Assembly (NCBI GenBank): GCA_035516255.1
Contig: DATJAL010000001.1
Coordinates: 1-64,000 of the forward strand
Direction of reading: 5' to 3'
Length of the DNA stretch: 64,000 nt
Origin: Chitinivibrionales bacterium
Lineage (GTDB): Bacteria > Fibrobacterota > Chitinivibrionia > Chitinivibrionales > FEN-1185
Numbering within the stretch: the stretch's first letter is position 1; each line of letters begins with the position of its first letter. Shown here in pieces: positions 38,977 to 61,100 of this stretch. The notes under the pieces were generated by a model that worked only from the letters and a program-made list of their open reading frames with translations, was not told where the DNA came from and made no database searches. A program made the translations under genes and the position numbers.

Positions 38977-40536
38977 ATGGCTTTTTCTCTTCTCCACCCT
39001 GAAAATATCACCGCGGTCGTGGCAATACCACCTATTTGTGATTTCTATTTTACCCCGCACAGATTTTCATCCCTTGGCGCTAAAATAGTCTGTAACATTC
39101 TTTTGGAAAAAGGAATCAAGGTGGATTTTTTTAATTTCCCAATCATGGAAGAAAAGACCAAAGTCATTGATATGCCTTCAGAACTGTCTTATTTAAAAAA
39201 AAATATCATACCAAATGAAACCGGAAAATTGTCATATTTCACAAAATATCAGCGATTTGGACCTTCCCCGGAAGAATGTGCAACCATTATTTTTTCTTTA
39301 AAACCATCCATTTGTTTTCTCAGTTGTTTTGCCTATTCCTACGCTAAAGAACTCATTGATTTGGCAACAGATATCAAGAAATTACAACCGAATATTCTCG
39401 TTGTTGCCGGAGGTGCCGGCGTCAGCGCATATCCCCATTTCTTTATCAGGAATAAACACATAGACTTTGTTATGACAGGAGAAGCAGAAGTAAGCTTAGC
39501 CACATTTATCAATTCGCTTCTCAGCACCGATCATGATTTTGAACTGGTCCCGAATTTGTTCTGGAAGAAAAACACCTTTATCATTGAAAATCATGTCAAG
39601 TCATTCGCAGCGTCAAAAGAAATACAGCCTGTTATTGCTAAAGTTTTTGAAACCCCGAACAGGGTCTATTTTTCTACCAGTTTTAGCAGGGGTTGTCCAA
39701 AAGGATGCAGGTTCTGCTCAAACTTTTTAACGCATGGCAAAATTTTTCGGACAATTCCTTTAGATAAGGTCTTCCAGAACATTGATACGTTTTTGATCGA
39801 TGAAAAAACTCAAAAAAAGGCCATTTTCTTCAATTTTGAGGATGATAACCTTCTTTTGGCGCCTGAATATTTTTTAAATATAATGCAGGTAATTCGCGGA
39901 AAATACCCCGGAATCCGGTTCCTGGCTGAAAATGGCATTGATTATAACTTACTTTCTCATGACTTAGCCGAAAGATTGATCAAGGCTGGAATGTCGGGTT
40001 TCAACTTTACCCTGGTTTCACTGAAATATGAGATTTTAAAATACCAAAACAGAGGTTCATCCCTCTCACATTTTAAATCAATACTCAATCATGTAAATGA
40101 CCTTGGAATTCCTGTCCTTTCTTATTTCATTTGCGGCTTGAAAGGTGATAGCAAACAAGATGTGGTGAAAGTACTCTCTTATTTAAGAAATCTTCCGACA
40201 ACAGTTGGAATATCAATGTTTTATGGTATTCCAAATCTCCCGGATTTTAGCGAAATGACTTTATTCGATAATCTTGTCCCATGTATCAGCAATGGTTCTT
40301 CAGCATATCCGTGGAGCGATACTTTGTCAACTACTGAGCTCGTAACAGCTTTTAGAATAAGCAGATACGTAAATCTTCTCAAATCTTCAAGCAAAACGAA
40401 ATTGGATTTTCAATTAATTGGAAAAATTGAAAAGGAGAAAAAATTATTTACTTTAATGAAAGAAAAAAAAGAAATAAAAATAGCTGAGGTGCCGGAATAT
40501 GATAAAGAAATGGTGAGCCTGTTTTTAAAAGAGTAG
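38977..40536 (+). CDS. B12-binding-type radical SAM protein
   Basis: The 519 residues carry the radical SAM cluster motif C240-x3-C244-x2-C247 in SRGCPKGCRFCSNF, preceded by a Rossmann-like N-terminal domain with LVVAGGAGVSAYPHFF and a VMTGEAEVSLATFI segment. This is the layout of class B (cobalamin-domain) radical SAM enzymes. The N-terminal domain lacks a DxHxxG motif, so base-off cobalamin ligation may be altered. Reactions of this class include methyl transfer to inert carbon and ring changes. It stands alone on the plus strand, and its Lys-rich AT-rich codon use differs from neighbours. Confidence 0.88.
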   Translation: MAFSLLHPENITAVVAIPPICDFYFTPHRFSSLGAKIVCNILLEKGIKVDFFNFPIMEEKTKVIDMPSELSYLKKNIIPNETGKLSYFTKYQRFGPSPEECATIIFSLKPSICFLSCFAYSYAKELIDLATDIKKLQPNILVVAGGAGVSAYPHFFIRNKHIDFVMTGEAEVSLATFINSLLSTDHDFELVPNLFWKKNTFIIENHVKSFAASKEIQPVIAKVFETPNRVYFSTSFSRGCPKGCRFCSNFLTHGKIFRTIPLDKVFQNIDTFLIDEKTQKKAIFFNFEDDNLLLAPEYFLNIMQVIRGKYPGIRFLAENGIDYNLLSHDLAERLIKAGMSGFNFTLVSLKYEILKYQNRGSSLSHFKSILNHVNDLGIPVLSYFICGLKGDSKQDVVKVLSYLRNLPTTVGISMFYGIPNLPDFSEMTLFDNLVPCISNGSSAYPWSDTLSTTELVTAFRISRYVNLLKSSSKTKLDFQLIGKIEKEKKLFTLMKEKKEIKIAEVPEYDKEMVSLFLKE

Positions 40537-40965: not shown

Positions 40966-43900
40966 CTATGCGAGGATGGAAACGGGAACCGGCAGAACTT
41001 TGTTCTTAAAGGCAAGTTTGAAATAATTACCTTTTTCATCAGTATCAAGCCAGATACGGCCCTGATGGGCATTCATCACCATTTTGCAGAAGAAAAGGCC
41101 AAGCCCTTTGGAATATTGGGAACCTTTGCTTTCGAGGCGCGAGTATTTATCAAATATGGTAATCTTTTCTTCGTCGGGTATTGGATTCCCTGAATTGAAG
41201 AAGCACAGAACATTCTCATCATTCCGGATTTCAAGAGTCAGCACAACAGTGCCGGCCCGCGGAACGTACTTTGCCGCATTGCTGAAAAGGTTCTGCATTA
41301 TCCGTTCCACAAGGTAATAGTCCGCCTCTATGGTAAACGAACCCTTTGTGTTGTCCACTAAATCCACGGAAATATTCTTTTCTTCAAACATGACGTTCTG
41401 ACGCAGTAAATCCGCGATATCAAACAAAACGTCCTTGGTAAGGATTTCCTTTTTGATGCGGAGCTTGCCCTCTTCCATCTTTCCGATATCAAGCAGGTTT
41501 GATGCAAGGCTGACAATGCTCGAGCAGCAATCGCCCACGATCCGCGCCGTTTTAAGCACTTTTGGATCTTCCGGATATTGTTTGGCAAGCAACGTGGAGT
41601 TACCCTCGATTCCGGCCGCAAAATTCTTAATATCGTGCACGATCGTGCCCGCAAAAAGCCCTCGCATGCGCTCGGCGTCCACCAGTTTTACGTTATTTTC
41701 CGCGAGCTGCTTGTTTTTTTCCTGAATGTCGTTTGTCTGTTCCTTCACCTTCTTTTCCAGGTTCCTGTTGAGGCGTTTGAATTCCTCCATGAGATAAGCG
41801 TTTTGAAGGAGGATGTCGGCCTGCGCGGACAGGATCTGCGCCGTTTTTTTCGCGCTTTCCGAGAAAAGGCCGCTTACCATGTCGTTGCCGAGGTAAACGC
41901 AGCCTTGGTATTTGTCGCCATGGCACAACGGCACGCAAAGGACCGAACGGACCCTGTCGGTATCGCCTTTATCAAGATCTTCTTTTGGAGCATTTTTAAC
42001 AAGGACGATTGCTTTCTGCTTTTTTGTTTCCTCAACTACTTTATCCATAAAACGGATGTCTGAAGGTTTTATCATCGTGCCGTCAAAATTCATGGCAAGC
42101 GATTTACCGGTGAAATCATTCTCGCTGTTCCCGTCTAAAAACACGCATCCGTACTGCGCGCCCGTCGCCTTGATCATCGCGGACAGAACCTGCTTGAGCA
42201 GGACATCAATGTCATCAATCTTCCTTATTGATGCGCTTACCTCATAAAGTGTATCAAGCCGTACCTGGCTTATTTCCGAGGCCGATTCGGATAATTGGAT
42301 TTCCTGGGGAGCCGCGTGAGGCCTATGTTCAAAAATAACGATGTCCGCTTTGTCTTTAAGCCGGTCGGTCTCCAGTACCGCGCCGCATTGATGAAAAAGC
42401 TTATAAGCGGCGTTGAACTGGTCACGGGCCTGACCGGGCAGGTTGCAATCCTCAAGAAACAAGCCATAATCGCGCAGCGACTTGGCTTCCTCGTACCGCA
42501 TGTCGAGAACGTGGTGTCTCTTGATGGCCTTCTTAAAAAGATAATTGGCAATGCGGCGGCGGCCTTTAAAGGCGCTGTACCAGGCAAGGCAGCGGAGGGC
42601 GGCGCCCATGTGTGGCGGATAAACAATACCCTGGAAAAAGGCTTTTCTGCAATTGATAATGAGTTCTTTAAGGAGTTTTTTTTCTGAAAGATCCAGTTGC
42701 TTGGCTAATTCGTTGTTTAGCCTGTTTCGCAATTCGATAGTAAGTATTTCGCAATGGGTAGAAAAAGCGAAGGCTACATATTCCTGGTTAAGATTTTTTT
42801 CTTTAATGGTTGTGGCAATATTGGTGCTGATTTTGTAAGATTCTCTTAGTTGATTTCGCAAGATTCCTGTTTTTAAAAGATATCCACTAATGATTGTCTG
42901 AACAAGAGAATCGTGAATTTTAGTTCTTTCATTTTCAATATTTAAAATATCATCTTCATTCTTGACATTTTGTAACTCATAGAGAAATACTTTAGTACTC
43001 CTAGCATTCAAGAAACCTCTCAAATCACCACATTCTTGACATAGTTCAATTTCCTTTTCAAATAACTCAATACTTTCTTTTAACATTCCTTTTTTTTCTT
43101 GAATCCAGCCCATATTTTCTATTGGGACAATTTGACCCCAGAAATCTCCAGCGGAACGGTATTTTTCAATGGAACTGTACAGCATTTTTATGGCGTTTTT
43201 CCATTTGCCCCAATACGCATAAATGATTCCACAAAAACATTCTGCAGTAGCAAACAGGTCTTTGCGATTTATCTTTCCAAGTATTTTAATTGATTTATCA
43301 AAATAAATTAATGATCTGTTCTTCATTAGTGAAACATAGGCGCCAACAATATGAAAAATGTAGGTTTCTGCTTTTTCGTAACAATCCGGCAATCTGTCTG
43401 CAAGGTTCATTGCTTTAAGATGTATATACATTGCCAGAACCATGTCTTTAAAAAATAACGAGTAAGATAATTTATTAGATATTGTCAAGGTAAGCCTAAT
43501 ATTTTCGGTAATGTTTTTGGGAATTAAATGCTTTAAACCAATTGAATAAATAAATTGTATTATTGCTTGCAATAAAAGTAAAATGCTGGCCAGAGCCTTA
43601 CTTTGTGGCAACTTAGCATTCATCTGTTTTAAAGTATCAGTGAAAAATTTTATAGAGCTATCAAACTCCCCCATGTTATGATAAATCGACCCAACTCTAT
43701 ATTTTATTTCCAGTTGTTGGTACTTCTCAAGCGCCTCGGGTTTTTCCAGCAATTTCAAAAACGTATTCAGCGCCTGCTGGTTCCTTCCGGTCATCATGAG
43801 CACGTTTCCGAACTCCATCTGTACTTTGATCAAGTCCACGGGAACAGGCAGGCCAAGAGCCGGACATTGCGACGCCATGATGGAAGTGTTCATGAAATAA

Positions 43901-46104
43901 CGCGTGGCAATGTCGAACGTGATTTTTTCAGATGCGTATCGAGCAGCTTCGTAGCAGACCTTTATGGCTTTTGCCAGGTTTTTGCTCTTCAGATAATATT
44001 CCGCCGCGTTGAATATTAATTCCTTATTCAAGGCTAATTTTTCTTCATAAACAACCGCTATTTTTTCATTAAGCGTAAAAGCATCATTCTTTGGCAGGCG
44101 CAGAACTATGGATTCCTGGACTTTATCATGCCTGAAGTAAAAGTGATTTTCGGATTTCCTTATTATAAATCCCAGATTTTCGAGCTTGCGGAGAATACGG
44201 CTCACTTCCTTTATTTCAAAACCACCGATTTTTTCTACAATGTCTGTTTCGATTTTTCCCTGAATAAGCGACGCAAGCATGAGATACCGTTTTTCGTTCT
44301 CATTCAATATTTCCAATCTGGAAAGCACGAGAGAGACGGGGTCGAATTTTTCCGGCAGCGATTTAATGTCCGGTTTGCTGTAAACCCATCCCGAAGAAGA
44401 AGGTTTGAGAATGGAAGCATTCACCAGATACTGCACTGCTTCTGAAACCGTGAATGGATTGCCGTCCGTTTTAGCGCACAGCACATCAATAAGGCCGCCC
44501 GCGTCCTGAATATCGCCTATTCGGGACGAAACAAGCTCTTTGATGTCCGCACGGGAAAACGGCCTGACGTGAAGCAGCTTTCTTATCCCGATTTTCCTGA
44601 GGTCCGCGCCGTATGCGAAAACGTCGGTGTCAGATTTTTCCGTCCTGAACGAAATCACGAGCATGCATGAGGGCTGCATGCCGAGAAATTTTTTAAGCAC
44701 TTGAAATGAAATCTGGTCTATCCATTGGAAATCATCAACGAATACGATTGATTGCTTAAAAAGGCCGATCGCGGCGAAAAGCAATGAAAGGACATGGATG
44801 ATGCGCTCCGCTTCTTTTTCCTTTTCTACCTTGTCTATCTCCCCCACTTTTTCAAAATGTCCGTGAAGCTCCGGGATTATCGAGCATATAACGCCCGAAT
44901 AGTCGGTAAGATATTTCTGCAGCGTTTCCTTGAACAGGTTTTTTTCATTGGGACTGCATAGCGCGATTTTCGAAAGCAGTTGAAGAATGAGATGGCGGAC
45001 AACGGAATAAGGCTGGGTCGAGCTGAACTTGTTGCATTTCGAGGAAAGAAACATTGTTCTTTCTTCATTTACCTTTACACTGAACCGGCCGACTATCTCG
45101 GTCTTGCCCACGCCCGACTTTCCGAAAATCAGGAATGAGGAACCATTTCCCGACTCCAATTGTTCCAGCCCCCGGTTAAGAGCCTCGATTTCGGCATCGC
45201 GGCCGACAAATATTTTTGAGCGGCCGGCAGCTATTATGGCGTCTCTTTCGCCGGGGACAAAGGTGGTTTTTCCTTCTTCCTTAATGCTGAGAATTGCCTG
45301 TTCTATATCGTGTTTGAACCCGCTTGCGGTCTGATAACGGTCATCCGGAGAGGGTTTTAAGGATTTCAGAAGAATAGTGTTAAGATAGCCGGGAATATTT
45401 TTGACGGGTTTGACTTCGGTCTTAAGGGTAAATTTAAGAAGTTCTTCAAGAGAATCTTTGTAATCGGGAAACGGCAGACTCCCCGAGATCATCCTGTAGA
45501 GCATAATTCCGACGCAGAAAAGGTCTGACCTGGGATCAATTTTGAAATCCGTAAACCCCATTTGCTCGGGCGAAAGATACGGCATGGTGCCCACTATCCT
45601 GTTTTCCGGCACCTTTCGCGCCTCTTCTTCGAACATGGAAAGACCGAAATCAAGGAGTTCCAGGCCCCGCTCTTCATTGATGTAAATGTTGTTAGGGTTC
45701 AGGTCGCAATGGATAATGCCCCGCGCATGCACATATTCAAGCGCGTCCAGGACATGTTGGACGTACAACAAGGCTTCATCGGGAGCAATTGCACCCTTGG
45801 CTTCGAAGATTTTTGCAAGGGTGGTTCCGCGGCGGTAGGGATACAGGATCGAATAGCTGATTTCGTCGGCAAATGTGAGTACCGGCTTGGCAATGTTCGG
45901 GTGGTCGAGCGAAGAAACCGTGTCCACTTCTTTTCTGAAACGTATTTTCCTTTGAATGGCCTCACCCGAGACGCCTTTTTGCTCCTTTAGCGATTTAAGC
46001 AGGAAACGCTCCCCTGTTTCCTTTTTTTTCACCAGAAACACGTCGCTGTCATGGCTGGAGGAAACAAGATTGATGGTGTCGAATTTTTGCTGAAGGGCTT
46101 CCAT
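40966..46104 (-). CDS. Giant hybrid: Ser/Thr kinase, AAA-type ATPase, helical repeats, GAF and histidine kinase
   Basis: The 1712 residues have, in order: a Ser/Thr kinase domain (Lys 37, HCDLNPNN at 132-139 in place of HRDxxxxN, DFG at 152); an ATPase with Walker A GKSGVGKT at 328-335 and Walker B SIVFVDDFQWID; a long helical-repeat region of about 600 residues; a GAF domain (LYEVSASIRKIDDID, AQYGCVFLDG); a coiled coil; and a histidine kinase with IVHDIKNFAAG and ATP-binding NLFSNAAKYV and GLGLFFCKM. This matches the trifunctional sensor kinases known from myxobacteria and cyanobacteria. No response regulator is adjacent. The His-to-Cys change in the first kinase loop is in the sequence. Confidence 0.93.
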   Translation of the reverse strand: MEALQQKFDTINLVSSSHDSDVFLVKKKETGERFLLKSLKEQKGVSGEAIQRKIRFRKEVDTVSSLDHPNIAKPVLTFADEISYSILYPYRRGTTLAKIFEAKGAIAPDEALLYVQHVLDALEYVHARGIIHCDLNPNNIYINEERGLELLDFGLSMFEEEARKVPENRIVGTMPYLSPEQMGFTDFKIDPRSDLFCVGIMLYRMISGSLPFPDYKDSLEELLKFTLKTEVKPVKNIPGYLNTILLKSLKPSPDDRYQTASGFKHDIEQAILSIKEEGKTTFVPGERDAIIAAGRSKIFVGRDAEIEALNRGLEQLESGNGSSFLIFGKSGVGKTEIVGRFSVKVNEERTMFLSSKCNKFSSTQPYSVVRHLILQLLSKIALCSPNEKNLFKETLQKYLTDYSGVICSIIPELHGHFEKVGEIDKVEKEKEAERIIHVLSLLFAAIGLFKQSIVFVDDFQWIDQISFQVLKKFLGMQPSCMLVISFRTEKSDTDVFAYGADLRKIGIRKLLHVRPFSRADIKELVSSRIGDIQDAGGLIDVLCAKTDGNPFTVSEAVQYLVNASILKPSSSGWVYSKPDIKSLPEKFDPVSLVLSRLEILNENEKRYLMLASLIQGKIETDIVEKIGGFEIKEVSRILRKLENLGFIIRKSENHFYFRHDKVQESIVLRLPKNDAFTLNEKIAVVYEEKLALNKELIFNAAEYYLKSKNLAKAIKVCYEAARYASEKITFDIATRYFMNTSIMASQCPALGLPVPVDLIKVQMEFGNVLMMTGRNQQALNTFLKLLEKPEALEKYQQLEIKYRVGSIYHNMGEFDSSIKFFTDTLKQMNAKLPQSKALASILLLLQAIIQFIYSIGLKHLIPKNITENIRLTLTISNKLSYSLFFKDMVLAMYIHLKAMNLADRLPDCYEKAETYIFHIVGAYVSLMKNRSLIYFDKSIKILGKINRKDLFATAECFCGIIYAYWGKWKNAIKMLYSSIEKYRSAGDFWGQIVPIENMGWIQEKKGMLKESIELFEKEIELCQECGDLRGFLNARSTKVFLYELQNVKNEDDILNIENERTKIHDSLVQTIISGYLLKTGILRNQLRESYKISTNIATTIKEKNLNQEYVAFAFSTHCEILTIELRNRLNNELAKQLDLSEKKLLKELIINCRKAFFQGIVYPPHMGAALRCLAWYSAFKGRRRIANYLFKKAIKRHHVLDMRYEEAKSLRDYGLFLEDCNLPGQARDQFNAAYKLFHQCGAVLETDRLKDKADIVIFEHRPHAAPQEIQLSESASEISQVRLDTLYEVSASIRKIDDIDVLLKQVLSAMIKATGAQYGCVFLDGNSENDFTGKSLAMNFDGTMIKPSDIRFMDKVVEETKKQKAIVLVKNAPKEDLDKGDTDRVRSVLCVPLCHGDKYQGCVYLGNDMVSGLFSESAKKTAQILSAQADILLQNAYLMEEFKRLNRNLEKKVKEQTNDIQEKNKQLAENNVKLVDAERMRGLFAGTIVHDIKNFAAGIEGNSTLLAKQYPEDPKVLKTARIVGDCCSSIVSLASNLLDIGKMEEGKLRIKKEILTKDVLFDIADLLRQNVMFEEKNISVDLVDNTKGSFTIEADYYLVERIMQNLFSNAAKYVPRAGTVVLTLEIRNDENVLCFFNSGNPIPDEEKITIFDKYSRLESKGSQYSKGLGLFFCKMVMNAHQGRIWLDTDEKGNYFKLAFKNKVLPVPVSILA

Positions 46105-46301: not shown

Positions 46302-48074
46302 TCAGACCTTCTCCTGAAATACTTTTTTTAACGCCTTCATAAGCGCCGATGTAGGCTTGAAATCTTCCAGGTTCTTAATGTCCTGAATGAATTTTACAGT
46401 TCGCGGTTTAAGAGGCAGCATCTCCTCTTTATCATAGTTAATTTCAATTATGGAGGATGATTTTTCATTTTCATAATATGTTATTGCTTCTTTAAACGAG
46501 GAACGGATAGAAGCAACATCTATCGCCTTGAAATAGTGTATGCCAAATGATTCGGAAAATAGCCTAAGATCTGGCATGAAAAACGATGTACAATAACCAA
46601 GGTCGCCATAAATTAGCTTTTGCGCCCACTCCACAACATTATAACGATTCTCTACAAAAATGACCCAAATAACCGGTAACGCATATTGCCGGGCGGTTGC
46701 GATTTCCATGCCATGCATCAGGAATGCCCCATCGCCGGAAATCGAGAACACCATTTTTGAAGGAAATGCCTTTTTTCCGCCAAGGCATCCAGCAATGGCT
46801 TGTCCCAGGGTATAATTGCTCATGGTTATGGAATATGCATTCTTACGGGTCTTCAGGTTTCGTAATGAGAAATAGCCATTCGCCCCAATATCGCAAAACA
46901 CCATTGAGTTCAACGGCAAAATTTCGGAGATCTCTTTGAAGACTCGTTGGGGCCGCAATGGTGTCGCGGAATCATTCATTTCGGCTATACTTGCCTTATT
47001 ATCCAGAGCAATCTTTTCTTTCACATCTTCGCCAAAATATTTCTTTGTAACAACCTTTCCCATTTCGACGGTGATTCTTGAGAGAATTTCCCCCAGGTCG
47101 CCGGTTGTCGCGAGAAAGACGGGGTAGTTGCGTGCGATGTCGTAGCCGTCGATATCGACTTGAATCAATTTTTTCCCGGAAAATAAATCCGGATCGAATT
47201 TTAACGTGGCAAACTCGCCGAAATCCTCTCCTATCGCGACTATTGTGTCGCTTTCCTTGACCAGCACCTCTGCGCTTCTGTGACCGTACAAATCCAATAC
47301 CCCGCCGAAAAAGGGAGAAAACTCGTCAACAAGGCCTTTGGCGCTCGCGGTAACAATAACCGGAATGCCAAATGTTTCAAAAAGCTCTTGAACCTTGTCG
47401 GATACGTCCGGGCACCAGCATCTTTGACCTATAAGAAGAAGTGGTTTCGTAGAGTTCTTGAGCTCCTCGACTATCTTGAAAATTTGTTTTGTTTCCGCCC
47501 TCACACTTTCTGTGCAACGGTATTCTTTCATAGAAATAGAAGAGAAGTCTATCTGTTTCTCAAAATGGTCCGTTGGAACCAGTAGATGAACCGGGCCTTT
47601 TCGCCCGTATGAAGAACACCTGCATAAGTCACGTATGTGGAAAGGTATGTTCTCGGGATCTATGGCGGTAATCGTCTTTTTAGTAACCTCTTTCATTATG
47701 CTGGAAATTGAATAGGTGTTTCCAATTCCGGAATCTTCCTGGAAAGAATTTCGGCCCCATAAGTATGTCGGGACTATCGGGGTAAGCACAAAGCATGGGA
47801 TATTTGCCTTGTGCATCTCGGCTATTCCGGCAAGCAGATTCATTGCGCCGGGACCCGCTGTACCAAGAATTAAGGCAGGCTTTTGCGCAAACTTTGCGTA
47901 GTTTAACGCCATAAGACTCGCCGCGCCTTCATGCTTGACAGAAATGAATTCTATTCTTGAGCCTCTTAAAGCATTGAAGAACGCAAGATAATGTGAACCG
48001 GTTATTCCAAAAGCACACTCCACGCCTTCTTCTTCTAAACACTTAACAATGGCTTGCGCGACAGTTATTTTCAT
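46302..48074 (-). CDS. Thiamine-diphosphate-dependent enzyme, acetolactate synthase-like
   Basis: The 590 residues form three domains of the acetohydroxyacid synthase/benzoylformate decarboxylase family: the catalytic Glu in VKHEGAASLMA near 49, a central domain (KPLLLIGQRCW), and the TPP-binding motif SGDGAFLMHGMEIATARQY to ENRYN near 455-480. The FAD-binding signature of true acetolactate synthase is not evident. It sits by two radical SAM genes and an acyl-ACP reductase cluster, so a carboligase or decarboxylase acting on a specialised substrate is plausible. GGAG eight bases before the ATG supports the start. The natural substrate cannot be read. Confidence 0.88.
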   Translation of the reverse strand: MKITVAQAIVKCLEEEGVECAFGITGSHYLAFFNALRGSRIEFISVKHEGAASLMALNYAKFAQKPALILGTAGPGAMNLLAGIAEMHKANIPCFVLTPIVPTYLWGRNSFQEDSGIGNTYSISSIMKEVTKKTITAIDPENIPFHIRDLCRCSSYGRKGPVHLLVPTDHFEKQIDFSSISMKEYRCTESVRAETKQIFKIVEELKNSTKPLLLIGQRCWCPDVSDKVQELFETFGIPVIVTASAKGLVDEFSPFFGGVLDLYGHRSAEVLVKESDTIVAIGEDFGEFATLKFDPDLFSGKKLIQVDIDGYDIARNYPVFLATTGDLGEILSRITVEMGKVVTKKYFGEDVKEKIALDNKASIAEMNDSATPLRPQRVFKEISEILPLNSMVFCDIGANGYFSLRNLKTRKNAYSITMSNYTLGQAIAGCLGGKKAFPSKMVFSISGDGAFLMHGMEIATARQYALPVIWVIFVENRYNVVEWAQKLIYGDLGYCTSFFMPDLRLFSESFGIHYFKAIDVASIRSSFKEAITYYENEKSSSIIEINYDKEEMLPLKPRTVKFIQDIKNLEDFKPTSALMKALKKVFQEKV

Positions 48075-48136: not shown

Positions 48137-49438
48137 ATGCGAATTGGACTTATATCTCCCAAAGGAAATTTCAGCAGCAATGACCCAGAATTTAGAAAAT
48201 TCTGGGACGACTCACCTTATACAATAACATACCGTCAAAATTGGTCCGGCCTAGGGACAGGTTTATTGATAGTTGCCGCATTGACGCCACCTGAATATGA
48301 TGTGAAACTTATCGACGAAAATATTGAACCAATAAATTTTTCCGATAAATATGATCTTGTCGGAATCACTGCAATGACCCAGCAAGCAACCAGGGCATAC
48401 CAGATTGCGGATGAATTTAGGAAAAGAAATATACCAGTCACTATTGGAGGAATTCATGCTACGATTTTGCCGGAAGAAGCTAAAGAACATTGTGATAGTG
48501 TTGTAATCGGTGAATCTGAAAACACTTGGCCGATATTGTTAACGGATTTGGGAAGAAATACATTATTACCCTTTTATAGGGCAGATAAGGCAGTAAACCT
48601 TAAAGATTCACCATTACCAAGATATGATCTGTTAAAAAAACATTTCTATTCGATTGTCTGGCTTCAAACCACACGCGGATGTCCGCACGATTGTGATTTT
48701 TGCGCTGCATCAAAGATTTTTGGTGCAAAATACAGATTTAAAGATATAAGTCAGTTAAAGCAAGAAATAGAATTGATCCGAAAAGAACTGGGGGATATTC
48801 TGATTGGTATTGCTGATGACAATATTGCCGTAAATAAAAACTACCTTACCCTATTGCTAGATTATTTCAAACAATCTGGCATTAGATGGTTAGGCCAATC
48901 TGACATTTCCATTGCCCAGGATAACGAAATGTTAAGAATGGTTCGAAAAAGTAATTGCAAATTTCTTTTATTGGGGCTTGAAAGTATATCAGCAAAAAAC
49001 TTAAAAGCAATTAATAATAACTCCTGGAAATATGACAGATTATCTAATTATTCGACATATACACGAAGAATTCAGGAAACCGGCATTGGTGTAATGGGTT
49101 CTTTTATTTTCGGCTTCGACCATGATGATATTACTATTTTTAAAAAAACCGCCGAATTTGTCTTAGAAAACAATCTTTATTATGGGAATTTCAGCATCCT
49201 TACCCCCTATCCAGGTACAAGATTAAGGGAGAGATTATTAAAAGAAAACAGATTATTAACTACTCCTTGGGAAAAATATACCCTTTGGGATGTGAATTTT
49301 ATTCCTAAAAAAATGAGCGCCTCGGAATTACAATCAGGATTGTTTGATGCGTATAAAATGATAAATACGAGAGAAGCCTTTGAAAAAAGAGCAACTTATT
49401 TTAAAAATATTTTTAAAAAACAAATCAATATTTTATAA
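48137..49438 (+). CDS. B12-binding-type radical SAM protein, second copy
   Basis: The 433-residue enzyme has the motif C172-x3-C176-x2-C179 in TRGCPHDCDFCAAS, an N-terminal cobalamin-type fold (LVGITAMTQQATRAYQIAD and VTIGGIHATILPEEA), and IGESENTWP. It is distinct in sequence from the copy at 39 kb. It is transcribed divergently from the thiamine-diphosphate enzyme, with a 62-base gap that contains TATAAT at 48110-48115, and AGGG lies ten bases before the ATG. Its 3' end converges with the acyl-adenylate ligase gene by 7 bases. The strongly AT-rich sequence suggests later acquisition. Confidence 0.9.
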   Translation: MRIGLISPKGNFSSNDPEFRKFWDDSPYTITYRQNWSGLGTGLLIVAALTPPEYDVKLIDENIEPINFSDKYDLVGITAMTQQATRAYQIADEFRKRNIPVTIGGIHATILPEEAKEHCDSVVIGESENTWPILLTDLGRNTLLPFYRADKAVNLKDSPLPRYDLLKKHFYSIVWLQTTRGCPHDCDFCAASKIFGAKYRFKDISQLKQEIELIRKELGDILIGIADDNIAVNKNYLTLLLDYFKQSGIRWLGQSDISIAQDNEMLRMVRKSNCKFLLLGLESISAKNLKAINNNSWKYDRLSNYSTYTRRIQETGIGVMGSFIFGFDHDDITIFKKTAEFVLENNLYYGNFSILTPYPGTRLRERLLKENRLLTTPWEKYTLWDVNFIPKKMSASELQSGLFDAYKMINTREAFEKRATYFKNIFKKQINIL

Positions 49439-49445
49439 AAATTAT

Positions 49446-50807
49446 TTATACGAATTTAATTTTCTGCGGTAGCTTATATTTGGAAATATATTCCTCACAC
49501 CAAGTTTGATACTTTTTTTTATCATTCTCATTCTTATTATTAAGTTCAACATTTACACGTAGAATATTATATAGCAATTCATCTGGTTCACACTCAACGG
49601 TTGCCTTGATAACATTCCCAGGTATCTTCAGTAGTCGTTCCAATTCGGCAGGATATACTTTATTTCCGCCCAAATTATACATTCGTTTTTTGCACTCAAT
49701 GAAATAGAGATACCCTTCCTCATCCATTTTACCTATGTCTCCTGAATGGAGCCATCCATTTTTTAAAATCAAATGCGTAGCTTTCGGATTATTATAATAT
49801 CCTTTCATTACATTCATACCTTTAATACATATCTCTCCGACTTGTCCGATGGGCAGGACTTGGTCCCTCAGATCAAAAATCCTCACTTCGCAACAAGGCA
49901 AAGCGCGTCCTACCGAACCTTGCTTTACTTTGTCTCCAGGATAATGAAATGTACAGATTGGCGATGCTTCCGTAAGACCATAGCCTATTTGTATTTCAAT
50001 ATTGAAGTTGCTTTTAAATAGATTGAATATTTTATCGGAAAGCGGCACGCCGCCACAGACACAACTTCTTAATGTAGTTGGGAAGCCTTTAGTTTTATAA
50101 AATTTCCCCAGAGGATAAAAAATGGCGGGAATGCTGTAAATGTGCGACACGCTCAGCTTATTTATCTGATCGGCAATTATTTTTATTTTCAGGAATTCTT
50201 CTAGCTCAACTATAAATATGGAAGTTTTTGAGAGACTTGGGATAAAAATGCCTGTTTGCAAAGCAAATAAATGGCAATAAGATATCAATGCGCAAGATAT
50301 TGCACCAGTTGTGACTTTATTAGCCAACATACCTGCCTTTGCATTGGCAAACAAGCTCTCATTTGTCAGCATCGCCGCCTTTGCGAACCCGTCGGATGCG
50401 TTCGTATACAGCATCAGGCACACGTCTTCCAGCCCTTCCAGTCGTTTTTCCTCCAACCTGCAGTCCCTGAATTCGAATTCTTTTTCAAAATCAAACGCGT
50501 CGGTCGTTTTATCAATGCGAATGAGGGCGCCCGGGACGGTATCGGCCATCATTTCGACAAGCTCCAGTCTGCCTATGGCAGGGTCCACCAGCACGCAGAT
50601 GCGCCCGGACTTGATGATGCCGAACAGCGCATAAACCATCTTGATGTGGTTAGGGGCGAAAAGATAGACAAAAGGAGAGTTTGAAACGGAACGCTTATTA
50701 AGTCGGTCGGACACGGCGTCAATGCTTCGACTTACCGTGTCGGGCGTGTAGGTTTTGTCCCTGAAATAGATGTTGCCGAAATTGAGTCTGTCGGTGAGAA
50801 GCGGCAT
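49446..50807 (-). CDS. AMP-dependent acyl ligase-like protein, C-terminally short and with a degenerate P-loop
   Basis: The 453 residues belong to the ANL adenylating family by GYGLTEASPICTF (motif A5), GEICIKGMNVMKGYY, GWLHSGDIGKMDEEGYLYFIE and KKRMYNLGGNKVYPAELE. However, the usual TSGTTGxPKG loop is LYTNASDGFAKAA, and the frame stops at KLPQKIKFV, before the catalytic A10 lysine (GK) region. Normal members are 500-550 residues. It could still bind an acyl group, or it could be inactive. The ACP gene lies 54 bases upstream. ATG at 50807 is preferred over in-frame TTG and CTG just upstream. Confidence 0.8.
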   Translation of the reverse strand: MPLLTDRLNFGNIYFRDKTYTPDTVSRSIDAVSDRLNKRSVSNSPFVYLFAPNHIKMVYALFGIIKSGRICVLVDPAIGRLELVEMMADTVPGALIRIDKTTDAFDFEKEFEFRDCRLEEKRLEGLEDVCLMLYTNASDGFAKAAMLTNESLFANAKAGMLANKVTTGAISCALISYCHLFALQTGIFIPSLSKTSIFIVELEEFLKIKIIADQINKLSVSHIYSIPAIFYPLGKFYKTKGFPTTLRSCVCGGVPLSDKIFNLFKSNFNIEIQIGYGLTEASPICTFHYPGDKVKQGSVGRALPCCEVRIFDLRDQVLPIGQVGEICIKGMNVMKGYYNNPKATHLILKNGWLHSGDIGKMDEEGYLYFIECKKRMYNLGGNKVYPAELERLLKIPGNVIKATVECEPDELLYNILRVNVELNNKNENDKKKYQTWCEEYISKYKLPQKIKFV

Positions 50808-50861
50808 CAGCAAGTGTTCCGGTTCAAGAGCGCACCAATGTTAGTTTGACTCAGGCGGGCG

Positions 50862-51119
50862 TTATTTTGAAACGGCCCCGGCCTTTTCGATTTCGCCATC
50901 CAGCACTGCAAGAAAATCGTTGAACGTTTTTGCCTCCATTGCGGAAATCGGAAGCTCGATGTTGAATTCCGTTTCGAGTCTTGCCAACACCGCCACAAAT
51001 TGCATGGAGTCGAGATTCACCTGCTCCCGCAGGTTTTTTTCAGGATCAATGGTGGCGGGATCGACATTTACCGCGCTCCGGATGGCATTGTAGATTCTTT
51101 TTTTTAAAGCTTCGGTCAT
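50862..51119 (-). CDS. Acyl carrier protein
   Basis: The 85 residues contain NLDSMQFVAVLARLETEF with the phosphopantetheine-accepting Ser 38 in DSM, and an acidic, four-helix ACP layout. GGGGGAAGAGGAG precedes the ATG. It lies between an acyl ligase-like protein and an acyl-ACP reductase homologue, so it is probably the dedicated carrier for that pathway and not the housekeeping ACP of fatty-acid synthesis. Confidence 0.94.
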   Translation of the reverse strand: MTEALKKRIYNAIRSAVNVDPATIDPEKNLREQVNLDSMQFVAVLARLETEFNIELPISAMEAKTFNDFLAVLDGEIEKAGAVSK

Positions 51120-51224
51120 CTCCTCTTCCCCCCGGAATAAAGTTGATTTGCACTATGCTTGTTTTTATTATTGTTGATTCACCGGCCTGAAACTTTTGCA
51201 TCAAAGGTTTTGGATTTCTTTCTA

Positions 51225-52385
51225 TTATGCAACGGTTGCGGGAATATTGCAAGGTCTTTGTTCTTTATTGAGTTCCATCAAACATTTCTTGTATCGGTTT
51301 AAATCCTCATCCGTATAAACATGCTTTCCGGCAGAAAAAGAAATGCCTAAATTCTGAAATGCATCCAGCTTTTTGAGAAATAAATTTATTTTTTCCGAAG
51401 TGATGTTTCCCCTGCCCCAGGAGCATGGCAGCGAATCATCAAGTGCAATCAATATGCCCTCCACCTGGCACCCGTAAAACGTATCCGGGGCGGCAAGCCC
51501 GATGTCGAACCCGGGGTCCAGATTGAACGGCAGAGATACAATTCCGCCGTGATAAATAAAAACATCTTTCCGCAACGGCTCAGTCACCTTCACATTTTGC
51601 GGGGCTGAAGCGTCGCAGATAATGGTGCCCGGCCTGAAATCGTCCTGTACATATATTGGGACATAGGCGCTTGTCACAAAAATGACTATATCGGACCATT
51701 GCACCGCCTTGTTGTTATCGGTTGATATTTCAACCTCGCAAGTCATCAGGTCTTTCCGGCTTTGCAGCAGGGTCTCTAATGATCCCGTACTGCGCGCGGT
51801 AAGGATCATCTTCTTCACTCTGTTGCCAAAATAAGAAACACATCCGCTGCCGATATCACCGGATGCACCAACAATACCCAGGGTTATCTTACCTAAATCG
51901 ACGCCGAATTCAGCGGCTGCCTTCTCCACGGAGCGCACAATGACCGCGGCGGTAAGGGAATTGCCGGAAGTGAGCTTTATCTCGTGTTTTTGGGCGAAAT
52001 CCTTTTCCTGCCCCTGCAGCACAATCGAGGTGAAAGCGCCCAAAGCGGCCACACTGCATCCGCTTTGTGAAGCGATGGAAAGGGCCATGTCGATCTTTTC
52101 AACCACTTTTCGGAGACGAATGTCTTTCATGTCGGGCAAAAACGGGACCATGATGAGATGCGCGTCGAAAAAGTCTTTGCCGTCGAAAGTCAGGCCGCGC
52201 CATTCGGTCACCTTGTATGAGGGCGCCCATTCGAAAAGTTTGATCAGAAGTTTGTCGCTGTAGGTCTTATTGGGCTTGAGATGGCGTATGTAGGCACGGT
52301 AAAGATCCATGTCGGCTGGATGGCCTATGAAGGCAACTGAGCCCTTGTAATGCGGGTCCACGGCTGAATCCTTTTCACGGAGCAT
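51225..52385 (-). CDS. Acyl-ACP reductase homologue (cyanobacterial AAR-like)
   Basis: The 386 residues follow the cyanobacterial long-chain acyl-ACP reductase in order: GHPADMD near the start, FLPDM, ALGAFTSI, LTSGNSLTAA, the nucleotide-binding GASGDIGSG, GGIVSLPFNLDPGFD, and FYGCQVEGILIALDDSLPCSWGRGNITSEKI. The Cys of FYGCQ aligns by position with the acyl-accepting Cys of that enzyme, and the SWGRG-IT end is retained. The reaction would reduce an acyl-ACP to a fatty aldehyde with NADPH. A TTG start at 52406 is possible, but the ATG at 52385 gives a normal length. The preceding gene ends 4 bases before that TTG. Confidence 0.85.
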   Translation of the reverse strand: MLREKDSAVDPHYKGSVAFIGHPADMDLYRAYIRHLKPNKTYSDKLLIKLFEWAPSYKVTEWRGLTFDGKDFFDAHLIMVPFLPDMKDIRLRKVVEKIDMALSIASQSGCSVAALGAFTSIVLQGQEKDFAQKHEIKLTSGNSLTAAVIVRSVEKAAAEFGVDLGKITLGIVGASGDIGSGCVSYFGNRVKKMILTARSTGSLETLLQSRKDLMTCEVEISTDNNKAVQWSDIVIFVTSAYVPIYVQDDFRPGTIICDASAPQNVKVTEPLRKDVFIYHGGIVSLPFNLDPGFDIGLAAPDTFYGCQVEGILIALDDSLPCSWGRGNITSEKINLFLKKLDAFQNLGISFSAGKHVYTDEDLNRYKKCLMELNKEQRPCNIPATVA

Positions 52386-52410
52386 GTCGCTATTGCTGCA
52401 GACCAAAGCC

Positions 52411-53430
52411 CTACTCTTTGATTCTTTTTAACAGAGCCGCATATTCGGTTTCGCCGAGCGCGTTGGTGAATTGGATGCGCACGGTTCTTGATGCGATATC
52501 ATGGTGCATTTCCCGCGCAGTCAGTTTTATGCCGGCCAGATCGAACGGTTCGTCATGCCACTCAAAATGATCGTCGTATTTAAAGAGCATGCCTTTGGGA
52601 GAAATGTTGATGAGAAAGATCGGCAACGCACGGCCACCTGACACGATCGAAACATGTTTCTCGACCAACTGGCGTTCCCAGGTTCTCGTCGAGGTCGTGG
52701 TGAGCAGTTTCACCATTTCCTCGATTTGCTGCACACTGACGGCTTTTTTAAAAATGATCCGCGAGTTTTTGTGCTTGAGATCGTTGAACAGCGACTCCGC
52801 TTCGATGACCATGTTCCCTATCTTGACCGTCACGTTGGCGGCGTCGAACTCGCCGTCGTAGTAAAACATCATGCCCATCTGTGAAATGTTCACCACATAG
52901 GCGCGGATGTCTTTCCCGTTGAGGTTGATGTTGTTGTATCTGCCAACGTTGAAACGCCGGAATTTCCTGTCGTCGGCCTGCGTTCTTGTCAATTCCTCCT
53001 TTATCGCATGGATCATGGAATCGATGTTGGTCTTCATTTTTTCCTTGAGGATATGCCCGAGCACCTCCTCGATGACGGGAATGCCGAGGTTGTAATCGAT
53101 GGAGAAGTAGATTTTTATCCCCTCGTTCTGAAAATCCTCGACCTTCCATTTGCCGTTGATGTTCTCAAAATCGCCGTCAATGGACTCGAACCGGAGTTCG
53201 TAATTGTCAACGTCGTAATAGTCGCGTTCCACCCATTTGAGGGGTGCCTCCTCTACGGTCACGAACCATTCGGATTTTCCCTCGGTGGCGGATTTTTCAA
53301 TGATATTAACGCGGTCGACGTTTTCCATGATGTTCTCGTACCGTGAATAATCGGAAATGATGGTCCACGCAAATTCCTTTCTCACTTTGCCTTTCAGGAT
53401 CGCCTCTGTCGAAACGCGTTCGTAACCCAT
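52411..53430 (-). CDS. START/SRPBCC-like domain joined to two PilZ-like domains
   Basis: Residues 1-150 (MGYERVSTEAILKGKVRKEFAW, YDVDNYELRFESIDGDFENINGKWKVED) form an SRPBCC/polyketide-cyclase-like lipid-binding fold. The rest has two PilZ-like segments: FRRFNVGRYNNINL with NISQMGMMFY, and SIVSGGRALPIFLINISPKGMLFKYD. The NxSxxG parts are kept, but the Arg motif is irregular, so c-di-GMP binding is possible only. The gene begins 1 base after the receiver-histidine kinase gene and ends next to the acyl-ACP reductase gene, so it probably links signalling with the lipid product. Confidence 0.68.
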   Translation of the reverse strand: MGYERVSTEAILKGKVRKEFAWTIISDYSRYENIMENVDRVNIIEKSATEGKSEWFVTVEEAPLKWVERDYYDVDNYELRFESIDGDFENINGKWKVEDFQNEGIKIYFSIDYNLGIPVIEEVLGHILKEKMKTNIDSMIHAIKEELTRTQADDRKFRRFNVGRYNNINLNGKDIRAYVVNISQMGMMFYYDGEFDAANVTVKIGNMVIEAESLFNDLKHKNSRIIFKKAVSVQQIEEMVKLLTTTSTRTWERQLVEKHVSIVSGGRALPIFLINISPKGMLFKYDDHFEWHDEPFDLAGIKLTAREMHHDIASRTVRIQFTNALGETEYAALLKRIKE

Positions 53431-53431
53431 C

Positions 53432-54532
53432 TCAATTGTCCCCGATGTTTTTTATTGTGTAAATAAACGTCGTCTGCGGCACGCTCTTGTCCGATTCCAC
53501 GCGGATTTTTCCACCCATGGCCTCAACCGCCATTTTGCAGAAGGTAAGTCCCAGGCCGAAATTCCTGACGCCGGCAGACTGTTTTACCAATTGAACGCTG
53601 GAAAACTTATCGAATATCATGTTTCTCTGGTCCTCTTCAATGTACGAGCCTGAATTGCTCACGCTTGTCTGCACAGCGCCGTCCGCACATTCCTGATAGG
53701 ACACGGCGATTCTGCCCTCAGCGGGTGTGTAAAAAACGGCGTTGGAGACAATGTTAAAAAGGATTCGCGAGTACAGATCCCGATCTGCAACCAGGAAAAG
53801 AGGGGGGTTCTCCCTGGGTTCTATTGAAAAAGCTCTATTAGAAGATAGAATTTGCTGGCGCAGCGGCGCAAGCGTCGCCTCAACTTCGTTGTTGACGCAA
53901 AACTTTTCCCGGGATAGAGAAATCGAGCCCGCCTCGAACTTGGCCACGCTCAATATGTTCTCTATCATTGTTTTCATTTGCAAGACGCCCGAATCGCACG
54001 TGGTGACGATTCTCTGTTGGTTTTGATTAAGCGATTCGGGAAGATACCGTTTCGCGAGTTCCCACGCACCCATGATGCATTGCAAGGGACTTTTCAGATC
54101 ATGGATAAGAATCCCGAAATAGAGTGCATTGAGCTTTGCAATATTTTTCTTGGCTATGACATCAGGGACTTTTTTAAGAAATTCCTTTTCGTTGAAAGGT
54201 TTTGTCAAGTAATCCGCGGCGCCCTTTTTCATGCACTCCAGGCCCGTGCTGAGTGAATCGTGCGACGTGAACATCATTACTTGGACATATTTGTGACGCT
54301 CCCGTATATCGGGCAGCAGTTCGATGCCATTCTTGCCGGGGCCGAGGTTTATATCGAGCAGAACGATGTCGGTTTCAGGGTGGGAATCAAGATATTGGAT
54401 GCCTTCTTCCCCGCTAAGGGCGTATTGCGCAGTGAATCCCATGGTCTCCAAAAGGCCGGACACGCCTATGCATATCGGCATTTCGTCATCGACGAGAAGG
54501 ATGTGTGCGCGGGGAATCTTTTCAGATGCCAT
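53432..54532 (-). CDS. Receiver domain fused upstream of a histidine kinase
   Basis: Residues 1-125 form a receiver (HILLVDDEMP, phospho-Asp in IVLLDINLGPGKNG, TKPFNEKEF), then a short linker leads to LIHDLKSPLQCIMGAW with the phospho-His and a HATPase domain (NIVSNAVFYTP, NFGLGLTFCKMAVEAMGGKIRV). No membrane segment exists, so it is a cytosolic kinase that receives before it sends. I prefer the ATG at 54532; one at 54544 adds four residues. It is translationally adjacent to the SRPBCC/PilZ protein. Confidence 0.92.
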   Translation of the reverse strand: MASEKIPRAHILLVDDEMPICIGVSGLLETMGFTAQYALSGEEGIQYLDSHPETDIVLLDINLGPGKNGIELLPDIRERHKYVQVMMFTSHDSLSTGLECMKKGAADYLTKPFNEKEFLKKVPDVIAKKNIAKLNALYFGILIHDLKSPLQCIMGAWELAKRYLPESLNQNQQRIVTTCDSGVLQMKTMIENILSVAKFEAGSISLSREKFCVNNEVEATLAPLRQQILSSNRAFSIEPRENPPLFLVADRDLYSRILFNIVSNAVFYTPAEGRIAVSYQECADGAVQTSVSNSGSYIEEDQRNMIFDKFSSVQLVKQSAGVRNFGLGLTFCKMAVEAMGGKIRVESDKSVPQTTFIYTIKNIGDN

Positions 54533-54640
54533 GACAAGACCCATTGCTATGGATTATCCGCTGAAATAAAAATAAATATAATTAATAATTTTATAGGTTC
54601 CTTCAAATAACATGATTCCTGTCCGGATATAAACTTCCTG

Positions 54641-58101: not shown

Positions 58102-61100
58102 TCAGGCTTTTATAAATGATTTGATTGCCATTTTTTCCCTTGATCCCTGGTGATGGCTTTTCATTTTATCGTACACCCTTCGTGCCTGTACGACAAACGC
58201 CTCAAGGTTCGCTTCGATAAGCTGGGGAAAAGGGCTGCCGTCGGTTTCAACGGCCAGAAAGGGAAATTCCGATAAATCTTCGAGCAAGGCCTTACCGCGA
58301 AAAGTCGTGTTCATCCGCAGTTTGCCTTTGACGTTCATCTCCTTCTTGAGCACCGCCTCTGCAACGCGCGACGGCATGCAGCCAAAGGGGCCGATTGAAA
58401 CGACGCCGCAGGAATCATGCAGTATCTCCCGCAAACCGAGGCCCACCGTAAGGATGCATTCTCCCCTGAAGTGTTCATTCATCAAATGGCCTGCGGATGC
58501 CATGGTCTTGTCCACCTCAATCATTTCGAATTTATAGCAACCGCTTTTTGCGAGAACGGTTTTGATTCTTCTCTCCCACCATTCCTGGACTCCGGTGATG
58601 ACCCGCAGCTTCATCAGCTCTTTAAGCGGAAATTCTTTTTCGCCGAACCCCTGGTTCACGATGTAGTTGCTGTAGGCAAGATACTCGGAGACCGGCGCAA
58701 CCTTTACCATGAACCCGCGCCTTTCGAGATAATCGATGAGGTTTTTCCGGGAAAATTCGTCCTGGCGCACGAAAATTTCGCCGATGAGCGAAACGACGGG
58801 GACATCCCCCATGTTCATCGCCAGAGGAATTTGTTTGAGCTTCCGGCTTATCAAGGAGAGCAGGATGGAAAATCGAATCGAAAGCTTGCCCTCAAAATAG
58901 CGGACGAGCTCCTGCCAGCATTCTTCAAGGATTTTCTGCGCGAAATCCCGGTCACGCGCCGCAACAGCGAGAAAGCTCCGTATCTCGCAGAACACGTCCG
59001 CAGCCATGATCGCCTGCGATGCGGAGAGCAGTGCCCGCCCGCCGAGTCCCGCGTAGCCGTTCTCGTTTGTCATGGGAAATGCCGCGGCATTCTTTACGCC
59101 GTTGGTGTGGAACAACTGATCCATGGCGGTGCAATACTGGCCGAGCCTGCACGGTCCGCCTCCGGATGCCATGAAAAACAGCGATATTTTATCCGAAGGC
59201 CTTTGTGTTTTGCAATAATGCATGAACGAGCCGGTGGTCACGATGTACGGCAGGCATTCCTTGCACGACGTGTTTTTTCTTCCTTCGAGCAGCACCTCCT
59301 TGTCCGATATAGGGAGTGCCTTTGCCGCAATGCCGATGCTCCGCATCACCGCGGCAACTCCCTCGGTGGCGTAGCGTCCCATCGACGGCAAAACAACTTC
59401 GACATCGGAATGGTAAATGGAGCGAACGCGGCCGTCAGACGCATGCACGACCGGCACCTTGCCCTGGAAGTCGACCCACGTGGGCAGAAGAACGGTATCG
59501 CCCCTCCGGCGCCCGCCGGTTGCCGTCCTGCAATAACTTTTCATGATGTCAAGCGCCGCCTCCACGCGCGTGTCGATGCCCGCGTCCGCCGTGTGCTGGT
59601 CGAGCTCCAGGGTGAGCGACGGCTTTCGCCCCATGAGGTTGCGGAAATAGGTGAGAAGGAATGAATCGGGTCCGCAGGAGAAGTTGGTGATGTAAAATCC
59701 GAACAGTCGGGCATGCTCCTTCACCATCTGCGCCGATTTCATTATCTTCTGGCCCATGGCCCAGAACATCTGGCTGTCCACCTCGTATTCGTCGGACGGA
59801 AGCATGTCGTGGGGAATCAAGAGATGTCCGCGGGAGGCGATTTTATGCGGAATACCCATGTTCGCGTCGTTGGTGAACGAATTGTAGGGCCTGCCGAACA
59901 GGACGACGCCGAAAGTTTCCGGATGCGAATCGAGCCAGCTGAGCGCTTCCCTTCCCGCCTCGAGCAATTTCTTGTCAAACGCAAGCTGCACGCCGCAGGC
60001 CTTTGCATACGCCTCGCGTGCGACCGGTTCGGCAATTCCCATCTCCACTGCCATTGCCGCAAGCGTTTTTTGCGCCTGCCGGTATCCTTTTTTCATCGCG
60101 ATAACCGGAGAAAGGATGATCGTCGGTGAAGCTTCCAGCTCCTTGCGAAATGTTGTCTTCAGATAATAGGATTCACCTTGGACAAAAATGCAGAGCCTGC
60201 TGTAGGTGGGGACGTTCCTGACATGCAGCTGTGTAATGTGCGGCAGGAAAATATAGTCGAGATTTTTCTGCAGAAGATTGTAAAAACTTCCATGCGCTAT
60301 TTCCCCCGGCAGGCAAAAACCGGACTCGATGCGCGAAATGCCCTTCGGGTCAATCTCATCGGAAAGAACGACGGTAAATCCCATCTCCGAGAAGAAATGC
60401 GAGTAAAGAGGATACAGCGTATGGGTGAGAAACGACCTGCACAGACCAACGGTGCGGCCGTTGTTAAAGGCACCGGCAGGCGCGCCATAGGTTTCAAACA
60501 ATAATTTTTCGCGGATGGCGACAAAATCAAGGCTTCCCGTTTCGACCTTTTTCTTTATCCTCAGGTTGTAATATTTGTTGCAAATGCCGCCGAACGAATG
60601 CACGGTTCCATTGATGCGGATCTTCGCAATCTCGCATTTCCGGTCGCATTTTTCCCTTCCGCCTGCACAGGTGAAAGTCCCTTCTTTTACCGCTTCGCGA
60701 TTGGCGAGATCTTCAAGATCGAACGCCTGCGGCGCTGAAAACCCGAGTGAAAGACGATTGTTAACCTCGAGGGCCACGCCGAGAGCGCCCATGAGGCCGG
60801 GCTCCGGCGGTACGATGATGGGCATTTTTAACAGCGACGCCATGGCCACAGGCACGGCCCTGTTATAACAGACGCCGCCCTGCATGAAGATTTTCTTTCC
60901 CACCGGCCTGGAACCTTTGACGCGGTTGAGGTAATTGAGGCAGATCGAATAGACAAGTCCGGCAAGGATATTGTTTTTGTCAATGCCGTCCTGTCCGGCC
61001 AGCTTGATGTCGCTGGAAATGAATGCCGCGCATTGGTCGGTGAAATTGGGCGGGTTACCGGCGGCAAGCGCGCGATCGCCGATGTCCTCCATTTTAACGT

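Follow-up and report, generated by a model that had tools for sequence, protein, structure and literature searches.

The 64,000-nucleotide window analyzed here (positions 1 to 64,000 of contig DATJAL010000001.1, assembly GCA_035516255.1, from a Chitinivibrionales bacterium of the phylum Fibrobacterota) harbors a gene module built around a divergent homolog of acyl-ACP (acyl carrier protein) reductase (AAR). With a probability of about one half, we read this module as a locus making a fatty-aldehyde-derived product, in which the AAR homolog would yield the aldehyde, a thiamine diphosphate (ThDP) enzyme would extend it to an alpha-hydroxyketone, and a circuit responsive to lipid and cyclic di-GMP (c-di-GMP) would accompany the pathway. 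An earlier note on this DNA had described the module within positions 49446-53430, which cover four minus-strand open reading frames encoding a START-PilZ protein, the AAR homolog, an ACP, and an AMP-binding (ligase-like) protein. All four are present, and the module is larger than first noted, since its regulatory half had been missed: the REC-histidine kinase (REC-HK), the multikinase, and START-PilZ itself, which lay within the span undescribed. The minus-strand run reads REC-HK, START-PilZ, AAR, ACP, and ligase-like protein, with a nearly gapless junction between the first two, and alongside it lie a plus-strand gene for a B12-binding radical S-adenosylmethionine (SAM) enzyme, the ThDP enzyme, and the 1712-aa multikinase. 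What is known of AAR chemistry comes mostly from the alkane synthesis of cyanobacteria and from domains within larger enzymes (PigE, KecF, and the carmabin TAD). The combination of a free-standing AAR with its own ACP, an apparently non-adenylating ligase relative, a remodeled ThDP enzyme, and a conserved kinase/START-PilZ circuit suggests a product of fatty-aldehyde origin that has so far gone unstudied; the literature searched contained no description of such a pathway in these bacteria, and searches on START plus PilZ proteins, AAR/kinase clusters, and BbmA/CsmA returned none describing this locus.

The AAR homolog, present as a single copy in the surveyed genome (4.28 Mb, 96.6% complete), matched the TIGR04058 profile with an E-value of 5.2e-31 and 108.2 bits, against a curated equivalog cut-off of 449.7. 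Its closest solved protein by sequence was the cyanobacterial AAR 6jzq (E 1.6e-23), and it also matched the PigE model (E 2.9e-21). In an alignment of the window protein with eight homologs, 42-52% identical to it, Gly180, Ser182, Gly183, Ile185, Gly186, and Cys313 were invariant across the nine sequences. Cys313 sits in FYGCQVEG, within the region aligned to the catalytic end of 6jzq, and the SWGRG-IT end is present as SWGRGNIT; the three features on which the AAR assignment was originally based (GASGDIGSG, the acyl-accepting Cys, and this end) are all as reported. An AlphaFold model from the nine sequences (pLDDT 87.1, pTM 0.86) returned AAR chains as all of its top Foldseek matches (target TM-score, TMt, 0.80-0.82; E down to 5e-24), followed by the carmabin TAD domain and, far lower, by glutamyl-tRNA reductase and other dehydrogenases, a ranking that speaks against placement in another dehydrogenase family, the test set for it beforehand. 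The window protein is thus a divergent AAR homolog, homologous, throughout the AAR domain and at the active-site Cys, to the AAR-like thioester reductase superfamily (AAR, PigE, KecF, and TAD) and standing outside the cyanobacterial equivalog; "cyanobacterial-type", as it had been called, applies to its fold and not to equivalog membership. KecF is itself a member of this superfamily (PMC6498172).

Compared with cyanobacterial AAR (TIGR04058; 6jzq/6jzu), the window protein preserves the fold over nearly the full length, the GxxGxIG motif, the acyl-accepting Cys, and the SWGRGxIT end, but the two share only ~24% identity, the window genome lacks the aldehyde-deformylating oxygenase (ADO) partner, and the enzyme is free-standing with its own ACP, a ligase-like protein, and a ThDP enzyme. 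A second comparison is offered by the PigE, TamH, and KecF domains and the TAD of the carmabin nonribosomal peptide synthetase (NRPS), in which an AAR-fold domain frees a carrier-bound chain as an aldehyde within a biosynthetic cluster. PigE and KecF are fused to aminotransferases, whereas the module yielded no enzyme of that type, and the carmabin TAD comes from the carmabin biosynthetic pathway (its entry is named amino acid adenylation domain protein); unlike all of these, the window AAR gene is linked to signaling genes. Reduction of an acyl thioester to an aldehyde by this enzyme is a well-supported prediction from its fold, motifs, and conservation.

The claim that the AAR gene adjoins an ACP of its own was borne out (PF00550, DS motif), and ACP homologs adjoin AAR in further loci (L015-L018, L020, L021, L023, and L030), with Thr at the Ser38 position in the homologs of genomes G006 and G015. 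The role given to the adjacent adenylating-family protein, i.e., supplier of activated fatty acid, did not survive. The protein carries PF00501 and belongs to the ANL domain family, and in place of the ATP P-loop [ST]SG[ST]TGxPKG it reads TNASDGFAKA. Across the seven ligase-like module homologs (the window protein and six others), the canonical motif is missing from all seven and rewritten as T-[AN]-A-[DES]-D-G-x-A-K, with T137, A139, D141, G142, A144, K145, and an early end in common, while it is complete in several paralogs. None of the seven has the A10 Gly-Lys, which five paralogs possess (L107, L108, L112, L118, and L119), and a motif scan revealed that most ordinary paralogs of the same genomes retain the P-loop, the A10 Gly-Lys, or both. 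In the PDB alignment, the window protein reads YTNASDGFAKAAMLTN where feruloyl/fatty-acyl-CoA synthetase reads YTSGSTGRPKGAMLTH, and it stops with more than 20 residues of the solved chain remaining; the L030 ligase likewise matches PF13193 to position 63 of 76 only. An ANL-superfamily protein that has lost its A10 Lys and its phosphate-binding Thr would be expected to be severely impaired in adenylation with ATP. Ordinary adenylation is therefore unlikely, as both the P-loop motif and the C-terminal catalytic Lys are gone, and the ligase was rejected as fatty-acid activator; because the loss is shared and conserved, it points to changed function rather than decay, making the family a good case for what the ANL fold does without ATP-binding motifs. 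The protein more likely serves in acyl/ACP binding or transfer, and the acyl groups would then come from fatty-acid synthase, or from a reducing polyketide synthase (PKS) in related genomes. Two genomes of another family carry a reducing type I PKS near the multikinase (L019:7263-13544 and L051:13093-19443), that of L019 having the domains KS-AT-DH-ER-KR-ACP and lying between AAR and the kinase; these are a possible alternative acyl source.

Within the order, AAR is present in 8 of 40 genomes; among 168 genomes of the phylum an alignment model found it in no others, bar weak matches inside longer proteins (two same-order genomes). The module, which the earlier note had suggested seeking in the FCB group, recurs in Fibrobacterota and is rearranged in other Chitinivibrionales. 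L015 contains the multikinase, radical SAM, AAR, START, ligase, ACP, and REC/HK; L016 has AAR, ACP, a short-chain dehydrogenase/reductase (SDR), ligase, radical SAM, and multikinase; and L017 has REC/HK, START-PilZ, AAR, ACP, ligase, ThDP, and multikinase. One genome divides the set between L018 (ligase, ACP, AAR, START, and REC/HK) and L058 (multikinase, ThDP, and radical SAM). L019 combines AAR with the reducing PKS and multikinase, and L020/L021 show two AARs flanking an ACP, with START-PilZ and REC/HK. Because the same neighbors recur around AAR in other genomes, the association is not due to chance, and the varying gene order indicates that the linkage is kept by more than inheritance of one block. 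In L020/L021, the second AAR copy has a diverged C-terminal motif, and the ACP-like protein between the copies (L020:1464-1730 and L021:644-955) has Thr for the phosphopantetheine Ser (DTM/DTL), so its functional carrier role may be in doubt.

The link to the ThDP enzyme and to radical SAM chemistry, proposed from the window alone, reappeared in another phylum. L030, from a Polyangiaceae metagenome-assembled genome (MAG), holds AAR (53% identity), ACP, ligase (42%), radical SAM (49%), a hybrid histidine kinase, and ThDP (36%) together on a contig with a GC content of 0.64, while L083 (GC 0.68), from another genome of the same phylum, holds AAR (35%) and ThDP (32%) with an adjacent PknB-AAA_16-TPR kinase that shares the architecture of the window multikinase at 23% identity. 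It is mainly because of these two loci that the ThDP and radical SAM enzymes are counted as module parts. Radical SAM homologs also occur in L015 (36%) and L058 (54%, partial). The idea that L030 is a misbinned low-GC Fibrobacterota contig was rejected, its GC being 0.60-0.69 throughout. L023, a 4.9-kb contig of a Latescibacterota MAG with 75-85% protein identity to the cluster of Chitinispirillaceae genome G027 from a like-named sample (Zod_Metabat), may reflect recent transfer or a binning error and was left out as independent evidence. Among genome contigs, an alignment-based scan recovered eight AAR loci and a single-sequence scan no confirmed AAR relative; the viral contigs searched yielded none. 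Plasmid records contained weak relatives only, the match lying, where annotated, in class III aminotransferases of the PigE kind. Two further AAR-like regions were observed in larger proteins: a PigE/KecF-like fusion of aminotransferase class III and an AAR-like domain (L065:8946-11843, genome G029), at the end of a gene run that includes a gene resembling the window ABC transporter and represents another kind of AAR-type cluster within this order, and an NRPS-like protein with AMP-binding, ACP, and AAR-like C-terminal regions (L043:1393-3834, genome G003), which recalls the carmabin release domain.

The window ThDP enzyme retains the catalytic Glu49 and the GDG motif that mark the ThDP domain of acetohydroxyacid/acetolactate synthases (AHAS/ALS). 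It scores 280 bits against the ALS equivalog TIGR00118, whose cut-off is 538, and the genome has a separate ALS-type gene on contig C39. Its nearest PDB entry is BbmA (8x3x), with CsmA also close and acetolactate synthases next; the three-domain ThDP architecture, catalytic Glu, and GDG motif are common to BbmA/CsmA, for which our literature search found no published role, and to AHAS. In contrast to AHAS, the window gene is linked to AAR, and all five AAR-linked ThDP enzymes replace G(A/M)RFDDRVTG by GExFxExx(S/C) or a close variant and have lost the Trp of RQWQ. We take the lost Arg motif and Trp to hold the 2-oxoacid acceptor in AHAS, and their loss suggests an uncharged acceptor, e.g., an aldehyde. 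The predicted carboligation onto a fatty aldehyde is moderately supported. An acetohydroxyacid synthase is reported to have served for making alpha-hydroxyketones, which gives the predicted product a precedent (PMC7505981).

The pathway that we favor would start when an ACP-bound acyl chain passes to Cys313 of the AAR-like reductase, where reduction by NAD(P)H would yield an aldehyde of presumably fatty chain length. To this aldehyde the ThDP enzyme would join an acyl anion of two or more carbons, with pyruvate as the probable source, giving a long-chain alpha-hydroxyketone (acyloin), which the B12-radical SAM enzyme may methylate or otherwise tailor in genomes having it. Precedent for pairing a ThDP enzyme with an AAR-domain enzyme comes from prodigiosin synthesis, in which PigD, the ThDP partner, attaches acetyl at the carbonyl when the acceptor is an aldehyde (PMC8341465). 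With unsaturated thioesters PigD instead prefers attack at the beta carbon, and the AAR domain of PigE reduces the product (PMC8341465). By analogy with this second reaction, the window ThDP enzyme could act first, transferring a Stetter-type acyl anion onto an enoyl-ACP, after which the AAR-like enzyme would reduce the gamma-keto thioester to a keto-aldehyde. The match of the window AAR to the PigE model agrees with such an order, which we nevertheless consider unlikely: the module has no enoyl-forming enzyme or aminotransferase, the annotated plasmid-borne PigE-kind relatives are aminotransferase fusions whereas the window AAR is free-standing, and the window ThDP enzyme falls on the ALS/BbmA side in a comparison made among proteins other than PigD.

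The aldehyde might instead be formed on the way to a structural lipid (plasmalogen, alkyl ether, wax, or fatty alcohol), with the kinases merely regulating. The ether lipids of anaerobes draw on fatty aldehydes and alcohols, and a minus-strand gene at 58102-62793 encodes a 1563-aa protein of the activase type known for 2-hydroxyacyl-CoA dehydratases, with DUF2229 and two BcrA/BadF ATPase matches; this type is also tied to anaerobic plasmalogen synthesis. That gene is absent from those conserved around AAR in relatives, no ether-lipid synthase or alcohol dehydrogenase was recognized among the annotated module genes, and the patchy presence of AAR in the order is unlike that of a core membrane lipid, which together make this alternative quite improbable. 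Both it and PigD/PigE-like chemistry are nonetheless candidates beside the acyloin pathway.

On the signaling side, R155, R159, S183, and G186 of START-PilZ are invariant across 12 homologs and form the RxxxR and [DN]xSxxG motifs of PilZ domains, and its START part resembles Bet v1/START proteins in a moderately confident model (TMt 0.80 for its fold match, 2d4r), which makes the protein a putative binder of lipid and c-di-GMP. A REC-HK homolog adjoins START-PilZ in genomes of the order with and without AAR, and multikinase homologs are linked to AAR or ThDP in G001, G011, G027, G030, and G035. This regulatory half (REC-HK, START-PilZ, and multikinase) accompanies the AAR gene more consistently than any other part does within the order. 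From genomic linkage, its members may control the pathway or sense the product.

The acyloin pathway and its proposed control have observations both for and against them. In favor of the pathway, a tree built with 15 ThDP enzymes (six searched genomes and G035) places the five AAR-linked enzymes in one group, apart from other ThDP paralogs of the same genomes, housekeeping acetolactate synthases among them; its support (84/88) is under the strong threshold, and a long-branched Polyangiaceae paralog adjoins the group. The acceptor-binding role of the lost Arg and Trp is a presumed one. Against the pathway, the convergent radical SAM gene of the window stands between the ThDP gene and the AAR run. 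A ThDP homolog occurs in only three of the eight AAR genomes of the order, G001 having radical SAM without ThDP and G027 radical SAM and an SDR, so the aldehyde would have another fate in the rest and more than one fate across the family. In favor of the proposed control, START-PilZ is found in 8/8 AAR genomes and 12/40 in the order (hypergeometric 6e-6; by genus 6e-4) and the multikinase in 7/8 and 13/40 (6e-4; by genus 0.004), values that ignore shared ancestry, the by-genus figures ignoring finer kinship; the AAR genome lacking the multikinase is 77% complete. START, REC-HK, and multikinase genes also lead an independent life in some genomes without AAR, and they therefore constitute a unit of their own that AAR cassettes join. 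The same fact, together with the placement of the START/REC-HK pair and AAR on different contigs in G027, could mean that biosynthetic and signaling genes are unrelated neighbors in a shared genomic hot spot; within the order, nevertheless, each of the eight genomes with AAR has signaling genes next to it, in differing gene orders, and a PknB/AAA/TPR kinase adjoins AAR-ThDP in another lineage (L083), leaving this explanation decidedly improbable. Cyanobacterial-style alkane synthesis, suggested by the AAR homology, was rejected as very improbable indeed, given the AAR score far under the equivalog cut-off and the absence of an ADO, previously noted for the neighborhood and extended by a genome-wide TIGR04059 search with a positive Synechococcus control, such that only a non-homologous deformylase could rescue it.

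For the acyloin product, a signal role is speculative and one option among several. Alpha-hydroxyketone signaling is established for CqsA and LqsA, pyridoxal phosphate (PLP) enzymes acting on acyl-CoA (PMC3376566). The CqsA/CqsS and LqsA/LqsS systems resemble the locus in predicted product class (long-chain alpha-hydroxyketone) and in the linkage of synthesis genes to histidine kinase/receiver genes. The locus is not a member of these systems: no PLP-dependent synthase of the CqsA/LqsA type was present among the annotated module genes, AAR and ThDP enzymes standing in its place, and the window kinases, unlike CqsS/LqsS, are multidomain proteins of another architecture with no transmembrane sensor recognized. 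It is conceivable, if doubtful, that Fibrobacterota have a new lipid signaling class, shared horizontally with other phyla, in which a long-chain alpha-hydroxyketone made by reductase plus ThDP enzyme would be read by the co-encoded START-PilZ protein and Ser/Thr-His multikinase, so that a diffusible lipid signal would be coupled to c-di-GMP. An acyloin signal, if true, would mean that a known autoinducer type can be reached by a second route with unrelated enzymes, and it would link lipid directly to c-di-GMP.

Table 1. Features of the AAR module and their positions in the window
Feature	Positions	Strand	Evidence
REC-HisKA-HATPase protein, first of run	53432..54544	-	PF00072, PF00512, PF02518
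START/Bet v1-fold domain with two PilZ-like repeats (RxxxR...NxSxxG), putative lipid/c-di-GMP binder	52411..53430	-	PF03364 E 2.3e-15, PF07238
AAR-like acyl-ACP (thioester) reductase, 393 aa	51225..52406	-	TIGR04058 108 bits; PDB 6jzq/6jzu via sequence and fold
Nucleotide-binding motif GASGDIGSG, residues 180-188	51843..51869	-	Alignments
Cys313 codon, predicted acyl-accepting cysteine	51468..51470	-	Within region aligned to AAR 6jzq; invariant in homologs
Acyl carrier protein, 85 aa	50862..51119	-	PF00550 E 3.7e-11, DS motif
Ser38 codon, predicted phosphopantetheine attachment site (DSM)	51006..51008	-	Sequence
ANL-superfamily ligase-like protein, 455 aa, P-loop rewritten, without A10 Lys region	49446..50813	-	PF00501 E 1.5e-49
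B12-binding radical SAM enzyme, CxxxCxxC = CPHDCDFC	48137..49438	+	PF02310, PF04055
ThDP-dependent C-C bond enzyme, acetolactate-synthase superfamily	46302..48074	-	PF02776/PF00205/PF02775
Multikinase, 1712 aa: Ser/Thr kinase - AAA_16 - TPR - GAF - HATPase	40966..46104	-	Pfam

The start of the AAR gene could lie further in, as an in-frame ATG at 52385 would give a shorter protein. The GC content drops from ~0.5 to 0.30-0.41 at 49000-50500, over the radical SAM gene together with the 3' half of the ligase gene, with the shift in composition lying inside a single gene. Adjoining the multikinase, a second B12-radical SAM protein is encoded on the plus strand at 38977-40536, and it is kept together with its small neighbors in the same-genus genome G001, at 53% identity.

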